Positions 6,308 through 50,189 of a stretch of DNA of 64,000 nucleotides are shown here, one piece after another (the stretch's first letter is position 1; each line of letters starts with the position of its first letter). Origin of the DNA: Ferroplasma acidiphilum (GTDB taxonomy: Archaea > Thermoplasmatota > Thermoplasmata > Thermoplasmatales > Thermoplasmataceae); assembly GCF_002078355.1 (NCBI RefSeq), contig NZ_CP015363.1:1488001-1552000 (forward strand). The letters run 5' to 3'. The notes beneath the pieces were generated by a model that saw nothing but the letters and a program-made list of their open reading frames with translations, did not search any database and was not told where the DNA came from. Both the position numbers and the translations under genes were made by a program.

Positions 6308-6362
6308 TCATGCAGAATGCCCGGTTCAATAAAAATATATTTATAATATTTATATAGTAAGG

Positions 6363-6896
6363 ATGGCAGATTACACAATAAAGTCCGGAAATATAGTTAT
6401 TACAACAAAATTTCCCCGTGAACACATAAATGAATTTGTATCCTGTGCTAATGACAGTAGCCTTGGGTTGAATCTCATGTCACATGGATTTCATTATCCC
6501 TACACAGAAGAAGATGCTATGGAGTTTATTGATAAGAACAGGGAAGTCGAAGGTGAATCATTTGCAATTGATTTTTATATTATTTATGAAAATAACGTTG
6601 CAGGGGTAATTGGTTTGTCCGACATTGATTATGATAATTCCCGATCGCATGTAGGGTACTGGATTGGCAAAGATTACAGGGGAAAGGGAATTGCAACAGA
6701 GGCGCTGAAGGCGGTAATCTACTTTGCCGCCAGGACTTTAAGGTTGCACAGCCTTTATACCAGTGCCCTTATAGATAATATAGGTTCAATAATAGTCCTG
6801 ACGAGAAACGGATTTTCAATAGATGGAATTTCAAAGGATTGCTTCATGTATGATAACAGATTTTATTCAGCGTTTATGTTTTCACAGCTCCTTTAA
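6363..6896 (+). CDS. GNAT N-acetyltransferase, RimJ/RimL type
   Basis: 177 residues with the acetyl-CoA site VGYWIGKDYRGKGIATEAL (Q/R-x-x-G-x-G signature as DYRGKGIA) followed by the family's LxxHSLYTSALIDNIGSI segment. The RimJ/L subgroup acetylates N-termini or small amines; the substrate here cannot be read from sequence. The gene diverges from rnhB with a 55 nt AT-rich intergenic promoter region. Confidence 0.88.
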   Translation: MADYTIKSGNIVITTKFPREHINEFVSCANDSSLGLNLMSHGFHYPYTEEDAMEFIDKNREVEGESFAIDFYIIYENNVAGVIGLSDIDYDNSRSHVGYWIGKDYRGKGIATEALKAVIYFAARTLRLHSLYTSALIDNIGSIIVLTRNGFSIDGISKDCFMYDNRFYSAFMFSQLL

Positions 6897-7015
6897 TATC
6901 TGTGTTTTGCATGATATGTACAGATAAATTTCAAAAGCATTTTGGCAGCTTCATTTATATAGAAAATCACATTCATGGTAATATTTATTAACAATAATTC
7001 TATAAGTCTGTTCAT

Positions 7016-8692
7016 ATGACGAAATACGTTTTAATTTCGGACTCTACCTTGAGTTATGACTATAGAAATTTCCCGTTGCTGGATTTTTTGCCATGCGCCC
7101 CGGGAGACAAGGTACCCGGAAGAGTCTATAGATTTTTAAGAGGGCCTGCGCCGGAGGCATTGCCTAACGGTGAGGCAAAGTACGCACCATATGCCATAAG
7201 GAAAATTGAAGCAGGATTATTAAGAGACAATCCAAAGAAAGATGTAGCAGTTGCACACATGGACTATCTTTCAAACTTTATCACTGATGACACTGAAATA
7301 ATAGGAGTTTCTACCATGGACCCACTTGGAATAGGTCCGACAACAATGTCATACGCGGCCCTTTTCGGCGGCGATCTGGATTCCTGGGTAAGACGGGAAT
7401 GGGATATACTCATAGAAAGGATAAACCAGGTTAGAAAGGGCAAAAAAGCAAAGCTCGTTATCGGTGGGCCGGGAGTATGGGAGTTCACTGTCCTCAGAGA
7501 TGAAATAGACAAATACCATTTTGACTATGTTGTATCCGGAGAAATGGATGATATTATTTCTGATCTATTCAGAGGAATTGAGCATGATGATATAGATAAA
7601 AATATGTTCACCAGGGGATACATGACATACGATGACCATTTCAGAAGAGTTGTAAAAAATGATGAATTATTCGTTGGAAGGGGAACCGGAATAAGGGCAT
7701 ACCCTGCACTTGAGGACATACCTGAAATTGTTAACCCTGCGTCAAAGGGAATGGTTGAAGTTATGCGTGGATGCGGTGTAGGCTGCGATTTCTGTGAAGT
7801 TACATTGCGCCCATTAAGGTATTATTCACTGGATAGAATAAAAAAGGAAATAGAGGTTAATGTAAAGGGCGGAAACGACCATGCATGGCTCCATTCCGAT
7901 GAAATATTTGAATATAAGCATGAAAAAATGTTCACACCAAATCAGGATGAAATGGTAAATCTTATGAAAACCGTTATGTCTATAAAGGGTGTAACCGGTT
8001 CAAACCCAACACATGGGAGAATATCCATACCTGCAGCTTTCCCTGAATTGATACAGAAGCTCAGTACCATATTAAAGGCAGGGCCTGACAACTGGATCGG
8101 CATACAGACAGGAGTAGAAACTGGCAGTGACTCACTTGCAATGAAGCATATGCCCAATAAGACAATGCCATTGAGGATAGGCGCGGATGGCTCGTTCAGA
8201 GATATAGTATGGCAGGGCGTATACAATGAAACAAAGTATTACTGGAGGTCCGCATTTACAATACAGGTAGGGCAGCAGGAAGAGACAGATGAAGACAACT
8301 GGGATTCCATAGCCATGATTAACCAGCTAAGCCATTCATATGTTGATGGCAGGCCATTTGAATTTACAGTCACGCCTCTGGTAAATGTGCCACTTGGAAG
8401 AATAAAATCCAGAAGCCTTAATTCCATGCTTAATCCTGTGCAGATGGGTGTTTATTATGCATCATACAGGCATCTAGCCAAGATGGCAAAAAGGGATGGT
8501 TTCAGAGATGCCAATGGAAACATATTTGCAAGGGCAGGCACAGGAACCATACTGAGCGTTGGTGGCGAAGTAATGCTTAAAGTCGTGGAAAAAATAGCAA
8601 AGAAAAAAGGTGTGGACATAGACAAAGTCAAGAAATGGGGAATTGAAAGCGAGAAAGAAATTTCATCACTTAGCACCCTTACCAGAGCTTAA
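7016..8692 (+). CDS. Radical SAM protein with N-terminal B12-binding-like domain
   Basis: 558 residues. Residues about 75-190 resemble a cobalamin-binding Rossmann domain (IIGVST.., LVIGGPGVWEF, YVVSGEMDD). The [4Fe-4S]/SAM motif CxxxCxxC is C253-C257-C260 in VEVMRGCGVGCDFCEV, followed by the TIM-barrel part (HAWLHSDEIF, IQTGVETGS). This is the COG1032 architecture. The ATG at 7016 lies about 30 nt after a TATA-like AATATTTATTA, suggesting leaderless transcription. Related archaeal enzymes methylate or make C-C bonds on unactivated carbons, for example in lipids, but the substrate here is unknown. Confidence 0.85.
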   Translation: MTKYVLISDSTLSYDYRNFPLLDFLPCAPGDKVPGRVYRFLRGPAPEALPNGEAKYAPYAIRKIEAGLLRDNPKKDVAVAHMDYLSNFITDDTEIIGVSTMDPLGIGPTTMSYAALFGGDLDSWVRREWDILIERINQVRKGKKAKLVIGGPGVWEFTVLRDEIDKYHFDYVVSGEMDDIISDLFRGIEHDDIDKNMFTRGYMTYDDHFRRVVKNDELFVGRGTGIRAYPALEDIPEIVNPASKGMVEVMRGCGVGCDFCEVTLRPLRYYSLDRIKKEIEVNVKGGNDHAWLHSDEIFEYKHEKMFTPNQDEMVNLMKTVMSIKGVTGSNPTHGRISIPAAFPELIQKLSTILKAGPDNWIGIQTGVETGSDSLAMKHMPNKTMPLRIGADGSFRDIVWQGVYNETKYYWRSAFTIQVGQQEETDEDNWDSIAMINQLSHSYVDGRPFEFTVTPLVNVPLGRIKSRSLNSMLNPVQMGVYYASYRHLAKMAKRDGFRDANGNIFARAGTGTILSVGGEVMLKVVEKIAKKKGVDIDKVKKWGIESEKEISSLSTLTRA

Positions 8693-10307: not shown

Positions 10308-11075
10308 TCACAGGCTGTGGGTAAGATTGTCTATTCTCCCACCATCTACCACAAGTACCTGCCCATCCATATATTCCGATTCATTTGATGCGAGGAATAT
10401 TGCGGCATCTGCAATATTTTCAGGTTTTCCAGTCATGCCAAGCTCCGTTTTCGATTTGAATGATTGCCTGAGATTGTTCACCTCTTCCTCACTTTTCCCT
10501 CCTATGGTCATATCGGACTCTATCCAGCCGGGGGCAATGGCATTGACTCTCACGTGCCAGTCCATCAGGTCAAATGCAAGTCTTTTAGTGAGCATTGTTA
10601 TTGCGGCTTTTGTCATGGAATAAAATGTTGTTCCCTTAGCAGCAGTTCCAACACCTGCATTGGATGCCAGGTTAATAATAATTCCATGCTGTTTTTTCAG
10701 GTCTTCAATGCATTCCCGGGTTGTGTATACTGGCCCCATAAGATTTACGTCAAATATTTTTTTCACTCTGGCATCATCAAACTCATCCCATGTGATTGCG
10801 CTGAGAATTCCCGCATTATTAACTAAAATGTCTATTGTTCCCATTTTCCTGTGTATTTCATTTACCATGTTGCGAACTGCTGCATGGTCAGATACGTCAG
10901 CCTGGAAAATTTCAGATCCAGCGAGCATGTTTTTTAATTCCATAGCCGATTTCTGGTCCCTGTTATAATTGATTGCTATTCTTGCCCCTTCAGAGGCAAA
11001 TTTCATGGCTATTGCCTTTCCCAATCCCCGGGAAGACCCGGTTATTAATACTATTTTATTGTCAAGTTTTCCCAT
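10308..11075 (-). CDS. Short-chain dehydrogenase/reductase (SDR)
   Basis: A 255-residue classical SDR: cofactor motif TGSSRGLG (residues about 12-19), NNAG (about 87-90), catalytic Ser region NLASNAG, YxxxK as FYSMTKAA, and the C-terminal YMDGQVLVVDGG. The family includes FabG-like ketoreductases and glucose 1-dehydrogenases; a sugar dehydrogenase role fits the non-phosphorylative glucose pathway of this order but is not shown by sequence. The gene stands alone. Confidence 0.9.
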   Translation of the reverse strand: MGKLDNKIVLITGSSRGLGKAIAMKFASEGARIAINYNRDQKSAMELKNMLAGSEIFQADVSDHAAVRNMVNEIHRKMGTIDILVNNAGILSAITWDEFDDARVKKIFDVNLMGPVYTTRECIEDLKKQHGIIINLASNAGVGTAAKGTTFYSMTKAAITMLTKRLAFDLMDWHVRVNAIAPGWIESDMTIGGKSEEEVNNLRQSFKSKTELGMTGKPENIADAAIFLASNESEYMDGQVLVVDGGRIDNLTHSL

Positions 11076-41597: not shown

Positions 41598-42863
41598 ATG
41601 GAAAGACAGGTAAAGAAAAAGCCTGTTGCTAATGCATATTACATTTCAATCGGCGCCATTAGCATTTTCGTTGCAAGCTACAATATAGCTATAATATCTG
41701 TAGCACTAAAACCCATAGAAAATGCATTTCAAACCGGCACCGGTATAGTATATCTTCTGGGTGCATTGATATTTGTTGGCGCCATGATAGGTGCGATAAT
41801 AAGTGGGGTATTTTCTGACAGGTTTGGCAGGGTCAGCATACTTACAATAGATATAGTAACGTTTATAGGTGCAGGCATCGGGAGTGCATTATCCACCAAT
41901 ATCGCAATGCTGATGTTTTTCCGGACACTGGTAGGAGTTGGTGTTGGAATTGATTATGTTGTAATTTTCACATATATTTCTGAGATTCTTGCCACAAAAA
42001 ATTCTACAAGGAATTTAGCCCTGATAATGTTCTTTGCCAATTTTGGAATATTATTTTCTTACCTCATAGGAGGAACGTTGTTGACTCTTGGATCTACAGG
42101 CTGGAGATATGCACTGCTCTCCGGAGCCATATTGGCAATAGTCCCCCTGATTATGAGAAGCAGGCTCAAGGAATCCACCCTATGGAAATTTAAGAGAATA
42201 AAGTCTATAAAAACCATATTAAAAGATGTAACGTCAAGGGAAAACAGAAAATATCTTTACAGATTTTCCATTCCATGGTTCCTTTACCAGATTGGGGACC
42301 AGAGCCTTACGATGTTTCTGCCATTTATACTTATATCTGCACTGGGTATTTCTGTAGTCAGCGGGGCGTTTTCGGCTGTGCTTGTCAAAGCATTTACCAT
42401 ACCTGCATCAATAGTAGCATTTTTAATCATACAGAGGCTTGGAACAAGAAAACTCCAGGCTACTGGATTTATTATAAGGTCAGTATTTCTCGGGATACTT
42501 GGGTTCGGCCTATATTTCGCATTAAGGTTTACCGGAATAGAAATTATAATACTTCTGGGATTTGCATTCTTCTTCGGTTCCATGGGGCCGGATAAGACCA
42601 CAGTAATAATGCCAGTTGAAAAATATGACGAATCGATTCGTGGTTCAGGGCAGGGATTCAATGAAATGGCCGGGAGATTTGGCGGGCTTATAGGTATCCT
42701 TGCATTTGCCCTCTTCGGGATGGCGGGCATAGACATAGGGCTTATATTTCTATCCATCACGTGTATTCTCGGATTCATAATAACGGTTATATGCCGAGAT
42801 AAAAATATAGTGGAAAATATTTCTAAAAATGCAAAGGAAGAATACTATGCCAGGACAAAGTAA
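41598..42863 (+). CDS. MFS transporter (metabolite:H+ symporter type)
   Basis: 421 residues, 12 helices. The loop 2-3 signature is GVFSDRFGRVSIL. The first half resembles the sugar/aromatic acid symporters (TYISEILATKN). C-terminus KNIVENISKNAKEEYYARTK. Its last ~60 bp recur as a decayed copy at 45704-45765. Substrate unknown; in acidophiles import is usually proton-driven. Confidence 0.88.
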   Translation: MERQVKKKPVANAYYISIGAISIFVASYNIAIISVALKPIENAFQTGTGIVYLLGALIFVGAMIGAIISGVFSDRFGRVSILTIDIVTFIGAGIGSALSTNIAMLMFFRTLVGVGVGIDYVVIFTYISEILATKNSTRNLALIMFFANFGILFSYLIGGTLLTLGSTGWRYALLSGAILAIVPLIMRSRLKESTLWKFKRIKSIKTILKDVTSRENRKYLYRFSIPWFLYQIGDQSLTMFLPFILISALGISVVSGAFSAVLVKAFTIPASIVAFLIIQRLGTRKLQATGFIIRSVFLGILGFGLYFALRFTGIEIIILLGFAFFFGSMGPDKTTVIMPVEKYDESIRGSGQGFNEMAGRFGGLIGILAFALFGMAGIDIGLIFLSITCILGFIITVICRDKNIVENISKNAKEEYYARTK

Positions 42864-42897
42864 ACATCATTTACAATGAAAACCTGAATTTCCTTAC
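42801..42897 (+). repeat. Direct repeat DR1 (MFS end plus DUF35-end remnant)
   Basis: Matches 45704-45801 (DR2) over about 97 nt in the same orientation, roughly 70% by eye. Read on the plus strand, DR1 is the end of the intact MFS gene (KNIVENISK..). Read on the minus strand, 42857-42895 encodes KEIQVFIVNDVYFVLA then stop, which matches the last residues (KKFQDFTVNDVYFVLE) of the DUF35 protein. DR1 thus holds an intact MFS end and a broken DUF35 end. Confidence 0.7.
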
Positions 42898-42934
42898 TGT
42901 TATTCATCGATTTAATCAATTTTATAAAATTTAA

Positions 42935-43255
42935 CTAAATTATTAAATATCTCATCGTTACCAGCAAGGATTTTGCCATTTCGTATATCCTATTTATTGT
43001 GAAAACACGTGGTTCTATATCAATTGGCATATAAGGGTCCATGAATTCTATTTCACTTCTGGTTGAATCTGTAATTATTATAACATCGTCATCTGAAAAT
43101 GGAGTATAATCTCTTCTGGCAAGAGAACCAATCAAAATTGTTAACAATGAACCTTTTTTAATTGAATTATTTCCATATTCAACAAGTTTTTCAAAAATAA
43201 AAGGGTAATTAATTTCGTATGTTCTTGTTGCAGAATTCGAATATTTCCTTTGCAT
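42935..43255 (-). CDS. Minimal nucleotidyltransferase (MNT) of an MNT/HEPN module
   Basis: 106 residues. The nucleotidyltransferase motif GSLARRDYTPFSDDD (GSx..DxD type) is at about 42-56. MNT proteins in these pairs AMPylate and neutralise the HEPN partner. It overlaps the upstream HEPN gene by 47 nt, an unusually long overlap; no ATG, GTG or TTG lies after the HEPN stop before the conserved part, so ATG 43255 is the only canonical start. Within the direct-repeat-flanked insert. Confidence 0.8.
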   Translation of the reverse strand: MQRKYSNSATRTYEINYPFIFEKLVEYGNNSIKKGSLLTILIGSLARRDYTPFSDDDVIIITDSTRSEIEFMDPYMPIDIEPRVFTINRIYEMAKSLLVTMRYLII

Positions 43256-43598
43256 AATTTAAACACCTCTTTGCGTCTTCTATTGAGTAGTACTCAAACG
43301 GGGACCCCTCAGTATAATAATCCGGGTATCTTGAACCTATATACACTCTATCGAGTTCCATTGCTTTGTCAGCTAGACTCTTATCTATATCAAATTCTGT
43401 AAGTTGCAACAGCATCCTTGATACAGAATGGCTCCATATTTCCTTATTTATTGAATGGTACAAGGCTATCACTGCTTTCTCAGCAGATTGCTGGGATGCA
43501 AAGCAAGCCCATTCGTATTTTTCATTATTTAATGAGCCTTCAGCCTCTTCGAGATCCCTTTTAGCCTGTTTTAGCCAATCCATCGATCTTGATGGCAT
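43209..43598 (-). CDS. HEPN-domain protein (toxin-like partner of MNT)
   Basis: 129 residues (COG2250-like HEPN): MDWLKQAKRDLEEAEGSLNN.., EWACFASQQSAEKAVIALYHS, then ..GSRYPDYYTEGSPFEYYSIEDAKRCLNYAKEIF. These proteins are helical dimers and some are RNases; the classical R-x4-6-H motif is not obvious here, so RNase activity is uncertain. The pair is a common toxin-antitoxin-type module and rides in the inserted segment. Confidence 0.8.
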   Translation of the reverse strand: MPSRSMDWLKQAKRDLEEAEGSLNNEKYEWACFASQQSAEKAVIALYHSINKEIWSHSVSRMLLQLTEFDIDKSLADKAMELDRVYIGSRYPDYYTEGSPFEYYSIEDAKRCLNYAKEIFEFCNKNIRN

Positions 43599-43763
43599 TT
43601 ATTTACTATAATTAAAGTCTTTATTAGCATTTCTATGATTTTGTGGTTCTTAAATTTCTGTTTTTATGTAAATTTATTTTCTTATGGAAATTATCAAGGT
43701 TCTTTTTCGGTAGTACATATAATTTGTATAAAATTCTGTAGAAACTAAAGAATATTAGAAATT

Positions 43764-44175
43764 ATGTTCGTCTACTCAACAACATTTTCCGGTGAATTTT
43801 ATAGTTTAGTAGCTGCCGCTGCCTATACAATCATAGGAACTGCTATAATTCTAGGTAATCCATAATGTATACATTATAACAGTTATTTACCTACTGTATG
43901 CAACATTTGCATTTACCAGTTTCCCTGCCTTGTTCGCCTACGTTGCACTGACAATACCGCAGAAATTTTGCACCAGGCCCAACGCACTTGTATGTAATTT
44001 TGGCAATATAGTTGGGGATCTATAGACATTGCAATAGTAACAATCCTGCTCTATGCCCATGTGGCACTTTACACATCGCTGCTTGTAATGCTAATATTCT
44101 CTGTCATTCTATAATTATGCTCCCATCAAAAATGAAGCAGAAAGAACTGGCATCATGGATTTGAAAAGTTAATTT
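43764..44175 (+). pseudogene. Degraded MFS transporter (C-terminal part)
   Basis: Successive fragments in different frames read MFVYSTTFSGEFYSL.. (stop at 43863), then LYATFAFTSFPALFAYVA..PNALVCNFGN (stop about 44024), then IAIVTILLYAHVALYTSLLVM (stop at 44114), then NEAERTGIMDLKS before a final stop. The pattern (helix, ..PxxFCTRPNALVCNFGNIVG, helix, polar tail) matches the end of a sugar-type MFS protein with frameshifts and stops. Not recently broken. It is not the decayed copy of the 41598 gene. No other gene is seen in the 784 nt from 43599 to 44382. Confidence 0.6.
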
Positions 44176-44382
44176 TATAAATTTATTAGCCTTTACAAAT
44201 TTCTGAACAGGTAACCTCCAATCATTCGGAAAATGAATTGACATAGCATCGTATATAACATTTAAAAATTGGAAACTGTCATGTATATATGATAACAGAA
44301 AGTTCTAAAATTTAACATATGAAAGTAAATATTACAATAAAAAACAATATCACTGAAAATATCAGGAGTTCCCGGTAGCAGA

Positions 44383-44610
44383 TTACCGGTTTATACGGCG
44401 CCGGTTTTTAAGGTACTGTTCTATAGAACCTGCAATAAGAAACGATATGGCCAAAAATATTAATGTTAAGTCTATAACATCGAATATAAAGGTTTTCTGA
44501 ATGGATAAAGGGATAGTGTTAAATATTGTAAGTGCGTTCAAACCTGTAAACGATAACATCAACATCACAAAAATCTCCTGGTATTTATTATTAAAATGGT
44601 ATTTTATCAT
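44383..44610 (-). CDS. Small two-helix membrane protein, 75 aa
   Basis: 75 residues with two hydrophobic stretches (about 13-32 and 42-60) and a very basic C-terminus (KNRRRINR). It overlaps the end of the secreted-protein gene upstream by 4 nt (ATGA), so it is translationally coupled to it. Unrecognised. A membrane partner or immunity-type protein of the secreted protein is an inference from coupling and size. Confidence 0.65.
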   Translation of the reverse strand: MIKYHFNNKYQEIFVMLMLSFTGLNALTIFNTIPLSIQKTFIFDVIDLTLIFLAISFLIAGSIEQYLKNRRRINR

Positions 44611-45422
44611 GCTATATTACCCTCATATAATGTCACTCTATGTGAGCCGTATTCGTTATAACTATTAGGCACGGCACTTGCAGGAGCATTAATCCAGGTA
44701 TATGGAACAAACCATGCATGTGCTTCATAGAAATATACTCCATTGTTTCCTCCCTCTTCATCAAAAAATGCGATCGTAGCGGCTCCTATCACCGCTATTG
44801 CTGCTAAAGCTCCCATTGAACCGATTCCGCTTAATGCGCCTATAGCACCTATATATGTTATTAAGACTTCTGTATTACTCTCACTAAATGCACATGCCCA
44901 TCCAGAAGGGCCAGTACTCCTTGTTGCGTAAAGATCAATATATACATCACTACTAATTCCTTTAACTGATGCTTTATTGACATTATGATTTAGTATAGTT
45001 ATGTTATAATTTCCGGATTTTGAATATAATGGTATCACACTATAATTGTAATTATTACCATGCGTATTATTTACCAATAACGATTCATGGAATAACTGAC
45101 CGTTTTTATATATATGTAATAATTCTCCAGTTACATTATCTGTGCCATTATAAAACGTGTAAGACATTGTTAATACTGTATTATTAGAAACATCGGTAAC
45201 GGCGTTAACGTCATTAGCATTATTAAATACCTTTGTATGGCTTACATTATGGAAATCTTTAAAATCATATTTATTTAAATAGTAATTTAACTCCGGTATA
45301 TGTGTTTTATCAACAGTATTATTTTCGTGGTTAAAATATATTAAGCCCATAAATCCACTCATCATCATAATTGTAGCAAGCAATAGTGCGACCATAATTT
45401 TTCTATTTTCACGCTTTACCAT
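44607..45422 (-). CDS. Putative secreted protein with Gly/Ala-rich hydrophobic segment, 271 aa
   Basis: From ATG 45422 (MVKRENRKIMVALLLAT), placed 25 nt after a TATA box. A signal peptide or anchor spans about residues 9-30. The 31-170 region is rich in Asn with many N-x-S/T sites (for example NNTVD, YNGTD, NNTHG, GNYNITI). Residues about 187-220 are a long Gly/Ala/Ile segment with repeated small-xxx-small spacing, followed by an acidic, aromatic tail. No family recognised. It resembles secreted membrane-active peptides or surface proteins. Within the inserted segment. Confidence 0.7.
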   Translation of the reverse strand: MVKRENRKIMVALLLATIMMMSGFMGLIYFNHENNTVDKTHIPELNYYLNKYDFKDFHNVSHTKVFNNANDVNAVTDVSNNTVLTMSYTFYNGTDNVTGELLHIYKNGQLFHESLLVNNTHGNNYNYSVIPLYSKSGNYNITILNHNVNKASVKGISSDVYIDLYATRSTGPSGWACAFSESNTEVLITYIGAIGALSGIGSMGALAAIAVIGAATIAFFDEEGGNNGVYFYEAHAWFVPYTWINAPASAVPNSYNEYGSHRVTLYEGNIA

Positions 45423-45440
45423 AATAATAATATTATTAAT

Positions 45441-45453
45441 TAATATATAAATT
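45441..45453. promoter_or_regulatory. Bidirectional TATA region, repeat copy B
   Basis: TAATATATAAATT lies between minus-strand ATG 45422 (secreted protein) and plus-strand ATGGC at 45468, giving the same 46 nt start-to-start spacing as at 18762/18808. Confidence 0.5.
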
Positions 45454-45643
45454 TTTCTACATAAACTATGGCAATTATTGACTGTATATAATAATTTTGA
45501 ATTTGTTATAGGGATTAGAGAAATACTGGATTTACAATATAATGGGTCCAATAACAATTGGGGTATACAGAAAAATATTTCAAAGTACTGGAATTTCCAG
45601 TTCCTACATCCTAATCGGGCAGACACTCAATGATGGCCATAGT
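45441..45643 (+). repeat. Dispersed ~200 bp repeat, copy B
   Basis: The second copy of the 18781-18981 repeat. It begins at the TATA box, continues through ATGGC (MAIIDCI then stop) and a 35-codon ORF starting ATG 45542. Its first 16 nt around the start (AAACTATGGCAATTAT) are identical to the start of the Cys-rich microprotein at 14945. Lies inside the DR1/DR2-flanked segment, directly before DR2. Confidence 0.65.
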
Positions 45644-45703
45644 ACATAAACTATTGTGTGTGATAGATAGAATACCTTACAGACCTATCATTTATAAAGA
45701 ATT

Positions 45704-45801
45704 AAAAATATAGTAAAAAATATTTCAAAGGAATTAAATAAAGAATTTTATTCTAAAACAAAGTAAACATCGTTTACAGTAAAATCCTGGAATTTTTTGA
45801 A
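45704..45801 (+). repeat. Direct repeat DR2 (decayed MFS end plus intact DUF35 end)
   Basis: On the plus strand 45706-45765 reads KNIVKNISKELNKEFYSKTK then TAA, a remnant of the C-terminus of the MFS gene at 41598-42863. On the minus strand it is the intact end of the DUF35 gene. Counterpart of DR1 at 42801-42897. Confidence 0.7.
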
Positions 45802-46197
45802 TTTTGCAATTATATCCATCCCGATTTTAATTTTGCCGGTATCATCTGCATAAAGCCTAGACATAAAAAGGGAATCTATCCCTGGAAACTCAACAAGGAC
45901 AAGCGTAAATGGCACATCGTTCCGGAAGCTTTCCCCGGAGTAGTAGCATGTCGTGAATGAATGTATTTTGCCCTTCAGGGGAAGTTCTATGTCCTCTGTT
46001 TCTGCACCACAATACATGCAGTATTTCCTGTATGTCCCGTATTTATATCCACATTCCGGGCATCTGGAACCCAGAAGCTTATTTTTTCCCAGGGCTATGA
46101 AAAATGGCGAATCCTGGGCATAACTGTGCCTGTATTCAGTATTATAATTCCATTCAACAACTGCAGGGTCTATCTTCATAAGTTTTTTTCCTGCCAT
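45748..46197 (-). CDS. DUF35 acyl-CoA-associated OB-fold/zinc-ribbon protein
   Basis: 149 residues. The rubredoxin-like zinc ribbon CPECGYKYGTYRKYCMYCG (residues about 40-58) precedes an OB-fold (KGKIHSFTTCYYSGESF.., VLVEFPGIDSLFMSRL). DUF35 proteins accompany thiolases and HMG-CoA synthases and help channel acyl-CoA intermediates. ATG abuts the thiolase stop (46198), so they are one operon. Confidence 0.92.
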   Translation of the reverse strand: MAGKKLMKIDPAVVEWNYNTEYRHSYAQDSPFFIALGKNKLLGSRCPECGYKYGTYRKYCMYCGAETEDIELPLKGKIHSFTTCYYSGESFRNDVPFTLVLVEFPGIDSLFMSRLYADDTGKIKIGMDIIAKFKKFQDFTVNDVYFVLE

Positions 46198-49055: not shown

Positions 49056-50189
49056 ATGAAGAAGAAAATAATAATAGGTGTATTAATGGTAGCTATATTT
49101 TTGATGTCAGGCTTTAATATTGTTACGGGCATAGAAAATACGGGTGCAAATACTGCGGTTACATCTCTTTCTTCAAACTCTTCAGTGTATAACAAAAATG
49201 GAAATAATTTAAAAAATATTGAAAATCAGAAAATTAATATCTATAAGGTAGGCAATTACAGCATATTGTCGTGTAATAATATGCTATCTAGAAATAATAT
49301 ATTAAATGTGGACATAGATAATCATTATTATGAAATAAAGTGGATTGTAAGCATGGTTGCAGGAAACGAAACTTTCCAGTTGCATTTCCATAACTATAAC
49401 ATAATTTATACGGATAATTCAATAATAGTACATGGATGGGATAGATATGCAGGCATATATAATGTATTATCAGTCAATAATAAGAGTTTAAATTCCAATA
49501 TAGTAATAAAAAGCAATGTAGCAGCCGTATACAACATAAAATTTGTTGAGGGAAATAATATAAAAAATTACAGGACAGTTAAATTGTCAGATAATTACAG
49601 TGCATCATTGATAAATGGCATAAAAACATCATGGGCAAATGAAATGGGGATTTTCCATAATGGAATATTAAGAATAAACAATAATTCATACATGCTTTCA
49701 CTTAATTTCAACAATATAAAATTAAACAAAGGACAGGCATATTCAATAGATCCCGCAATCAAGCCAATGCGATTGCCTGTGGAACCATGTACAACTACAC
49801 TCACATTTAAATTATACGATAACACACTCACTAAAATAGATATTTATAACATTAAGAATGAAATCATAGTTGACGGAACAGATATTTCTTATGATGCATA
49901 TTATTGCTTAATTGATACAGCTAACTGGCATAAAGTTTCATGTTCAACTAGCCATGGAAATTATTACAGCACTATTAACGCGTGTTTCATGGGTTATTTC
50001 GGAACATTTTGGCTAACCGCAGTAAGTACAGAAATATCACTTAGTTCTGGGGTATTTCATGGAACTATAAAGATTGCGATACTTGAATTGGTTGATAACG
50101 TATGGATACCGTATAAAAGTGAAACAGTTGTCAATAGTCAGATATCTGCTGCTACGGATAATTCTTATAAAGAATATATAATATCATGA
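49056..50189 (+). CDS. Putative secreted Asn-rich protein, 377 aa
   Basis: Signal peptide: MKKKIIIGVLMVAIFLMSGFN, about 25 residues. The rest is Asn/Ser/Tyr/Ile-rich with many N-x-S/T sites (SNSSVYN, NNKSL, DNYSAS, NNSYML), consistent with a glycosylated surface or secreted protein. Four Cys (C242 region PCTTT, CLIDT, CSTS, ACFMG) could form disulfides. No family recognised. Its signal shares the MSGF motif with the 44607 protein (IMMMSGFMG). Followed 9 nt later by a membrane-protein gene. No terminal anchor. Confidence 0.7.
   Translation: MKKKIIIGVLMVAIFLMSGFNIVTGIENTGANTAVTSLSSNSSVYNKNGNNLKNIENQKINIYKVGNYSILSCNNMLSRNNILNVDIDNHYYEIKWIVSMVAGNETFQLHFHNYNIIYTDNSIIVHGWDRYAGIYNVLSVNNKSLNSNIVIKSNVAAVYNIKFVEGNNIKNYRTVKLSDNYSASLINGIKTSWANEMGIFHNGILRINNNSYMLSLNFNNIKLNKGQAYSIDPAIKPMRLPVEPCTTTLTFKLYDNTLTKIDIYNIKNEIIVDGTDISYDAYYCLIDTANWHKVSCSTSHGNYYSTINACFMGYFGTFWLTAVSTEISLSSGVFHGTIKIAILELVDNVWIPYKSETVVNSQISAATDNSYKEYIIS

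Follow-up and report, generated by a model that had tools for sequence, protein, structure and literature searches.

Our analysis of the 64,000-nt stretch of Ferroplasma acidiphilum DNA presented here (the window), taken from a genome assembled as a single contig of 1,826,943 bp, suggests that two overlapping genes, here termed A and B, probably encode an archaeocin-immunity module composed of a secreted membrane-active protein and a membrane immunity protein. This reading draws on the architecture of A and its family, on a recurrent membrane partner that diverges faster than A and stays open beside broken A-genes, on the occurrence of the C-terminal domain of A at the tip of an RHS protein, and on the carriage of both genes on an insertion. 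A/B are best read as a new family of an already known kind, the toxin-immunity pairs. An earlier note, made from the sequence alone, had proposed a bacteriocin-like secreted protein with an immunity or partner gene, and our comparisons support this proposal, as neither protein matches a housekeeping or S-layer family and the pair recurs elsewhere.

The strongest argument comes from the C-terminal domain of A. In a genome from a different family within the class (locus L203), this domain ends an RHS-repeat protein, directly after an RHS core ending in "NRIDPSG" (profile E=1.3e-10, local E=9e-11; Pfam RHS_repeat 5.7e-8), and its profile gave no match among 5,781 reversed open reading frames (ORFs). 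In RHS systems, the position after the core is that of the toxic part. Because the same domain forms the RHS tip in L203, the C-terminus of A is predicted to be a toxin, an argument that comes from this single RHS locus. Positions 1–9200 of L203 comprise a 1765-codon RHS-like frame with 12 YD-type motifs, the 377-codon cassette that ends in this domain and another RHS-like fragment; the RHS frames and fragments each end in a different tip, with membrane-protein ORFs between them. The domain also ends a PKD-domain protein at locus L130, and at L048 a chimera combines a body 78% like that of L040 with a C-terminus 69% like that of L085, indicative of module exchange. The putative toxin domain thus appears to be exchanged between delivery architectures, namely RHS tip, PKD-domain protein and chimera.

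The second line of evidence is the downstream gene. B overlaps A by 4 nt (ATGA), so that its start lies within the last codons of A, and its product has hydrophobic segments at residues 12–30 and 41–59 (Kyte-Doolittle) and a net charge of +4, which bears out the basic two-helix protein of 75 amino acids (aa) described in the earlier note. A short membrane-protein gene is found −26 to +50 nt after most A relatives, often with an ATGA-type overlap. Under a strict rule (start codon within −30 to +60 nt, frame of 45–175 aa, at least two hydrophobic segments), such a partner follows 22 of 33 family genes, some of which are close homologues and hence not independent, compared to 13 of 302 other long ORFs of the same loci (Fisher p=1e-17). 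With at least one hydrophobic segment, the count rises to 27 of 33, the background value being that of the strict rule. The partner proteins form several sequence groups, and a profile of one group (A5) has strong matches (E≤3e-33) at A-family loci only; tandem related partners are found at L043 and L045. Where A-proteins are close relatives, their partners are related as well (22 pairs, permutation p=0.006). On sequence comparison, partners diverge faster than A: A and its relative at L039 are 47% identical, and between their partners the alignment is only marginal (Z 3.5). Since the sequence of B is restricted to its species, the co-occurrence considered in the earlier note is one of partner position and type, as in effector/immunity pairs, and does not extend to B's own sequence.

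At several loci the downstream membrane gene is still open even though the A-gene is damaged, by an internal deletion (L054), a premature stop (L048), loss of its 5′ part (L129 and L091) or a changed end (L051). This bears on an alternative in which B is a membrane subunit or a chaperone of A, and A itself a surface or cell-envelope protein that is anchored by its tail and functions in adhesion or self-recognition. Subunits of a surface protein would be expected to co-diverge with A rather than be swapped for barely related sequences, and would not be expected to stay open beside broken A-genes; neither does a surface role account for the C-terminal domain of A at an RHS toxin tip. We consider this alternative unlikely, albeit a signal helix and a C-terminal hydrophobic segment on either side of a sequon-rich domain would fit double anchoring, and hypervariable paralogues are also known from systems of recognition, for example VARTIG of Thermococcales (PMC8416519). 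No match over cut-off to an S-layer or other catalogued surface family in Pfam or NCBIfam was seen for any family member scanned.

The architecture of A agrees in all parts with the earlier note, i.e., a signal sequence, a region rich in N-glycosylation sites, a 33-residue Gly/Ala/Ile segment and an acidic aromatic tail. Two hydrophobic segments were detected by Kyte-Doolittle analysis, residues 9–27 and 202–220, the latter within the 33-residue stretch 188–220, and such a hydrophobic 19-mer is rare in composition shuffles (p=0.026). Residues 30–183 contain 8 N-x-S/T sites compared to 4.3 in shuffled sequences, a modest excess (p=0.04). The protein has a net charge of −7, with −4 and 10 aromatic residues in the tail (222–271). 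The strong evidence for these features is their conservation across homologues: the layout and the D-x-x-G-G-x-N-G-V motif recur in proteins of 31–48% identity, the leader follows the pattern "KKxIIAIxFATIMxxxGFxGLxYY", and D221, G224, G225, G228 and P247 are invariant (alignment A1). A single-species comparison is silent on selection here, because Ferroplasma acidarmanus Fer1 (contig NC_021592), grouped in one species with our host genome and carrying the same locus, is 99.6–99.9% identical across 16 kb and has identical A and B. The 15 extra nt of Fer1, which is otherwise identical, lie immediately upstream of A's ATG and fit a translation start at that codon. This difference falls in an A/T-rich tract at 45423–45440 (Fer1 locus L038, ∼10317–10331, on the minus strand of the gene's upstream side), a possible expression-tuning repeat; similar tracts of Ile codons precede L041 and L049, and L041 has no in-frame ATG at the usual place.

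We propose that A is exported via its N-terminal signal or anchor. Its sequon-rich domain, presumably glycosylated, may stabilise the protein, contribute to its release or bind it to surfaces. The part that would insert into the membrane of susceptible archaea closely related to the producer, and disturb it, is the C-terminal domain, which comprises an FNQxxT motif, a Gly/Ala-rich hydrophobic stretch, the D-x-x-G-G-x-N-G-V motif and a Pro/aromatic tail. The product of the overlapping frame, B, would reside in the membrane of the producer and keep the cognate C-terminal domain from inserting or assembling. Toxicity, membrane target, immunity and glycosylation are what we infer, as is the choice between a released and a cell-bound A. 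In a variant that does not exclude the archaeocin reading, A stays membrane-bound and the toxin-immunity pair acts by cell contact or vesicles only. The two hydrophobic segments and the lack of an evident release protease would be in line with this, as would the cell- and vesicle-association of published sulfolobicins (PMC5733018, PMC7559574); we regard delivery of this kind as possible but as the less likely case.

Conservation analysis with A as single query gave matches in 13 of 77 genomes of the host's family, one of them to the leader only and one to a remnant, with 31–48% identity in the good matches. Genome G025 harbors four family members and a leader-only match. Profile searches, through the C-terminal domain alone, extended the protein family to further genera and, beyond the host's own taxonomic family, to two more in the class, for a total of 17 among 400 genomes. 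The motif of this domain reads approximately G-W-x-x-SFNQxxTxxLI, a Gly/Ala-rich hydrophobic stretch, D-x-x-G-G-x-N-G-V-Y-F and a P-rich end. The host genome itself encodes two more paralogues of this domain (243 aa each, contig positions 1305131 and 1313150) with tails of the CGNGGYIGTTW...CNPVPWGF type, each followed 9–10 nt downstream by a membrane partner of 71–78 aa.

In agreement with the earlier note, which recognised neither family, our hidden Markov model (HMM) searches and comparisons with Pfam, NCBIfam, PADLOC, PHROGs and PDB sequences yielded nothing above cut-off or convincing for A/B. DUF5850 (E=0.011) and other Pfam matches of A were below cut-off, and the L003/L004 matches (heparinase-like, "YFYEAHAWFE") were discarded as chance matches in unrelated enzymes. 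We found no literature report on the A family; its proteins may have been listed earlier among candidate toxins. Other secreted proteins share only the leader with A (L052, L053 and L092–L094). Similar leaders on other bodies with hydrophobic stretches are seen at L094 (6853–8136) and L095 (minus strand; oriented 6333–7574), and the gene after each of them, at +8 or in overlap, encodes a membrane protein with several helices; these are possible further toxin-immunity families. In the window, another secreted protein of 377 aa with a related Lys-rich leader is encoded at 49056–50189 on the plus strand (MKKKIIIGVLMVAIFLMSGF).

As the earlier note had proposed, the segment that carries both genes next to an MNT/HEPN pair looks mobile, and the evidence for this is an empty site in three relatives and direct repeats. 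The MFS gene and the DUF35-like gene abut directly in L157, L158 and L160, and in the window they are separated by ∼2.9 kb carrying MNT/HEPN, A and B, with a G+C content of 32% compared to 40–44% in the flanks. The insert, 2.8 kb between the repeats, is bounded by imperfect direct repeats of ∼130 bp (alignment score 104; maximum 60 in 300 shuffles) that duplicate the gene junction: the left copy has an intact MFS end and a decayed DUF35 end, and the right copy the reverse. At the site corresponding to window positions 42863–45748, another Ferroplasma species (G022) carries a different insert of 4.5 kb (L161, 3890–8402) with HTH-like, bactofilin-like and AAA-ATPase-like ORFs, assigned by eye, and a weaker junction-like repeat (score 67, with no shuffle control of its own). 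From these comparisons, the MFS/DUF35 junction has received insertions more than once. We found no integrase in the insert of the window. The 780 bp between HEPN and B (43600–44382) hold no convincing gene and may be decayed sequence of the insert.

The position of A/B on a repeat-bounded insert together with MNT/HEPN could also mean that they are selfish maintenance genes that, along with MNT/HEPN, do no more than stabilise the insert. An export signal on A argues against such a role, as do homologues of A at other loci (whose surroundings were not systematically examined) and five scans that found no viral-contig relative. Plasmids and phages gave no relative either. We rate this explanation as very improbable. 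The earlier note had placed the pair at 44383–45453 with no strand stated; both genes are contained in this interval, on the minus strand, and its end lies 31 nt past the start codon of A.

Features of the A/B locus and its insert, in positions of the window.
Feature	Position	Strand	Basis
Gene A, predicted secreted/anchored toxin, 271 aa	44607..45422	−	Open frame, ATG start; family matches in relatives
A, N-terminal signal/anchor helix, hydrophobic residues 9–27	45342..45398	−	Hydropathy; leader conserved in alignment
A, Asn-rich, sequon-rich predicted extracellular domain, residues 30–183	44874..45335	−	8 sequons; conserved VIPLYSKSGNYNIT
A, hydrophobic Gly/Ala/Ile segment, residues 188–220, core of C-terminal domain	44763..44861	−	Hydropathy; C-terminal domain alignments A3/A4; same domain at RHS tip
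A, D221-x-x-G-G-x-N-G-V motif and acidic aromatic tail, residues 221–271	44610..44762	−	Alignment A1
Gene B, basic two-helix membrane protein, 75 aa, predicted immunity protein	44383..44610	−	4-nt overlap with A; comparable genes follow relatives
MNT (42935–43255)/HEPN (43209–43598) toxin-antitoxin-like pair	42935..43598	−	ORFs; identified in the earlier note and by eye; missing in relatives along with the whole insert
Left direct repeat: MFS 3′ end and decayed DUF35 3′ end	42799..42923	+	Local alignment
Right direct repeat: decayed MFS 3′ end and intact DUF35 3′ end	45702..45834	+	Local alignment

Several observations weigh against an archaeocin-immunity module. The hydrophobic segment of A could simply anchor a surface protein, and single-sequence AF2 prediction of A gave no usable structure model (pLDDT 37). 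No homologue of B was detectable outside its own species, several loci are without a partner under the strict rule, with none or an uncertain one at L132, L127 and L203, and the overall correlation between toxin and partner is weak (Spearman 0.18), though above permutation. Moreover, there was no second RHS-tip case, this arrangement being found in one of 37 genomes of that order.

Taken further, the C-terminal domain may found an uncatalogued superfamily of membrane-active toxins in Thermoplasmata with two routes of delivery, one through stand-alone secreted archaeocins paired with membrane immunity proteins and the other through RHS tips. No archaeocin family would precede this one in Ferroplasma and its relatives from acid drainage, and its spread would be due to insertion at a chromosomal site used more than once; we lean slightly towards this broader view. 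If true, wall-less, extremely acidophilic Thermoplasmatales would possess a further archaeocin family and acid-mine communities a testable agent of strain-level warfare, the architecture of A would have a parallel in a thermoacidophilic bacterium, and the toxin domain would connect small secreted archaeocins with large RHS toxins. A/B can be tested directly, as they are two short genes with sequenced culturable hosts and with gene-free relatives as likely sensitive testers.

Among known bacteriocins, a close layout is that of the geobacillin 26 family, class III bacteriocins to which alicyclobacillin 24 from the thermoacidophile Alicyclobacillus also belongs; both bacteriocins are reported to increase the share of membrane-compromised cells, to have a narrow range and to mediate antagonism among close relatives (PMC13176240). 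Members of this family, like A, have ∼240–270 aa, an N-terminal Sec signal and a predicted C-terminal transmembrane helix (PMC13176240), and by hydropathy A has the same combination of export signal and C-terminal hydrophobic helix. The family HMM (NCBIfam NF035925) gave no match for A and none over the 40-bit cut-off in the 77-genome scan, and therefore A may work like geobacillin 26 but is not called a member. A weak lead to membership, the C-terminus of one distant member (E=0.12), was not distinguishable from chance and was not upheld.

Halocins and sulfolobicins are named as the two main archaeocin types in a review (PMC7559574). The sulfolobicins of Sulfolobales (SulA/SulB, with SulC) are small secreted proteins of thermoacidophilic archaea encoded in variable genome regions (PMC7559574), and A, a predicted protein of this kind, resembles them in both respects. 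The comparison, already drawn in the earlier note and made here by description only, stands as an analogy, since published sulfolobicin consists of two co-encoded secreted proteins (PMC8628083), in contrast to one secreted and one membrane protein in A/B. The killer toxin B310 of SSV9 is likewise secreted and followed by a gene for a small membrane protein, C108, as A is by B; unlike A, B310 is reported without a transmembrane domain, and no immunity role was found for C108 (PMC8628083). Homology of A to B310 was rejected (hhalign probability 0.2%). In contrast to RHS polymorphic toxins, whose C-terminal tips are swapped and come with cognate immunity genes, A is a small stand-alone secreted protein of 271 aa without RHS or other delivery scaffold, and the Pfam scan showed no RHS match in A. 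Its family nevertheless shares with these toxins an immunity-type gene directly downstream, module exchange and partners beside broken toxin genes, and in one Thermoplasmata genome the C-terminal domain is itself the RHS tip.
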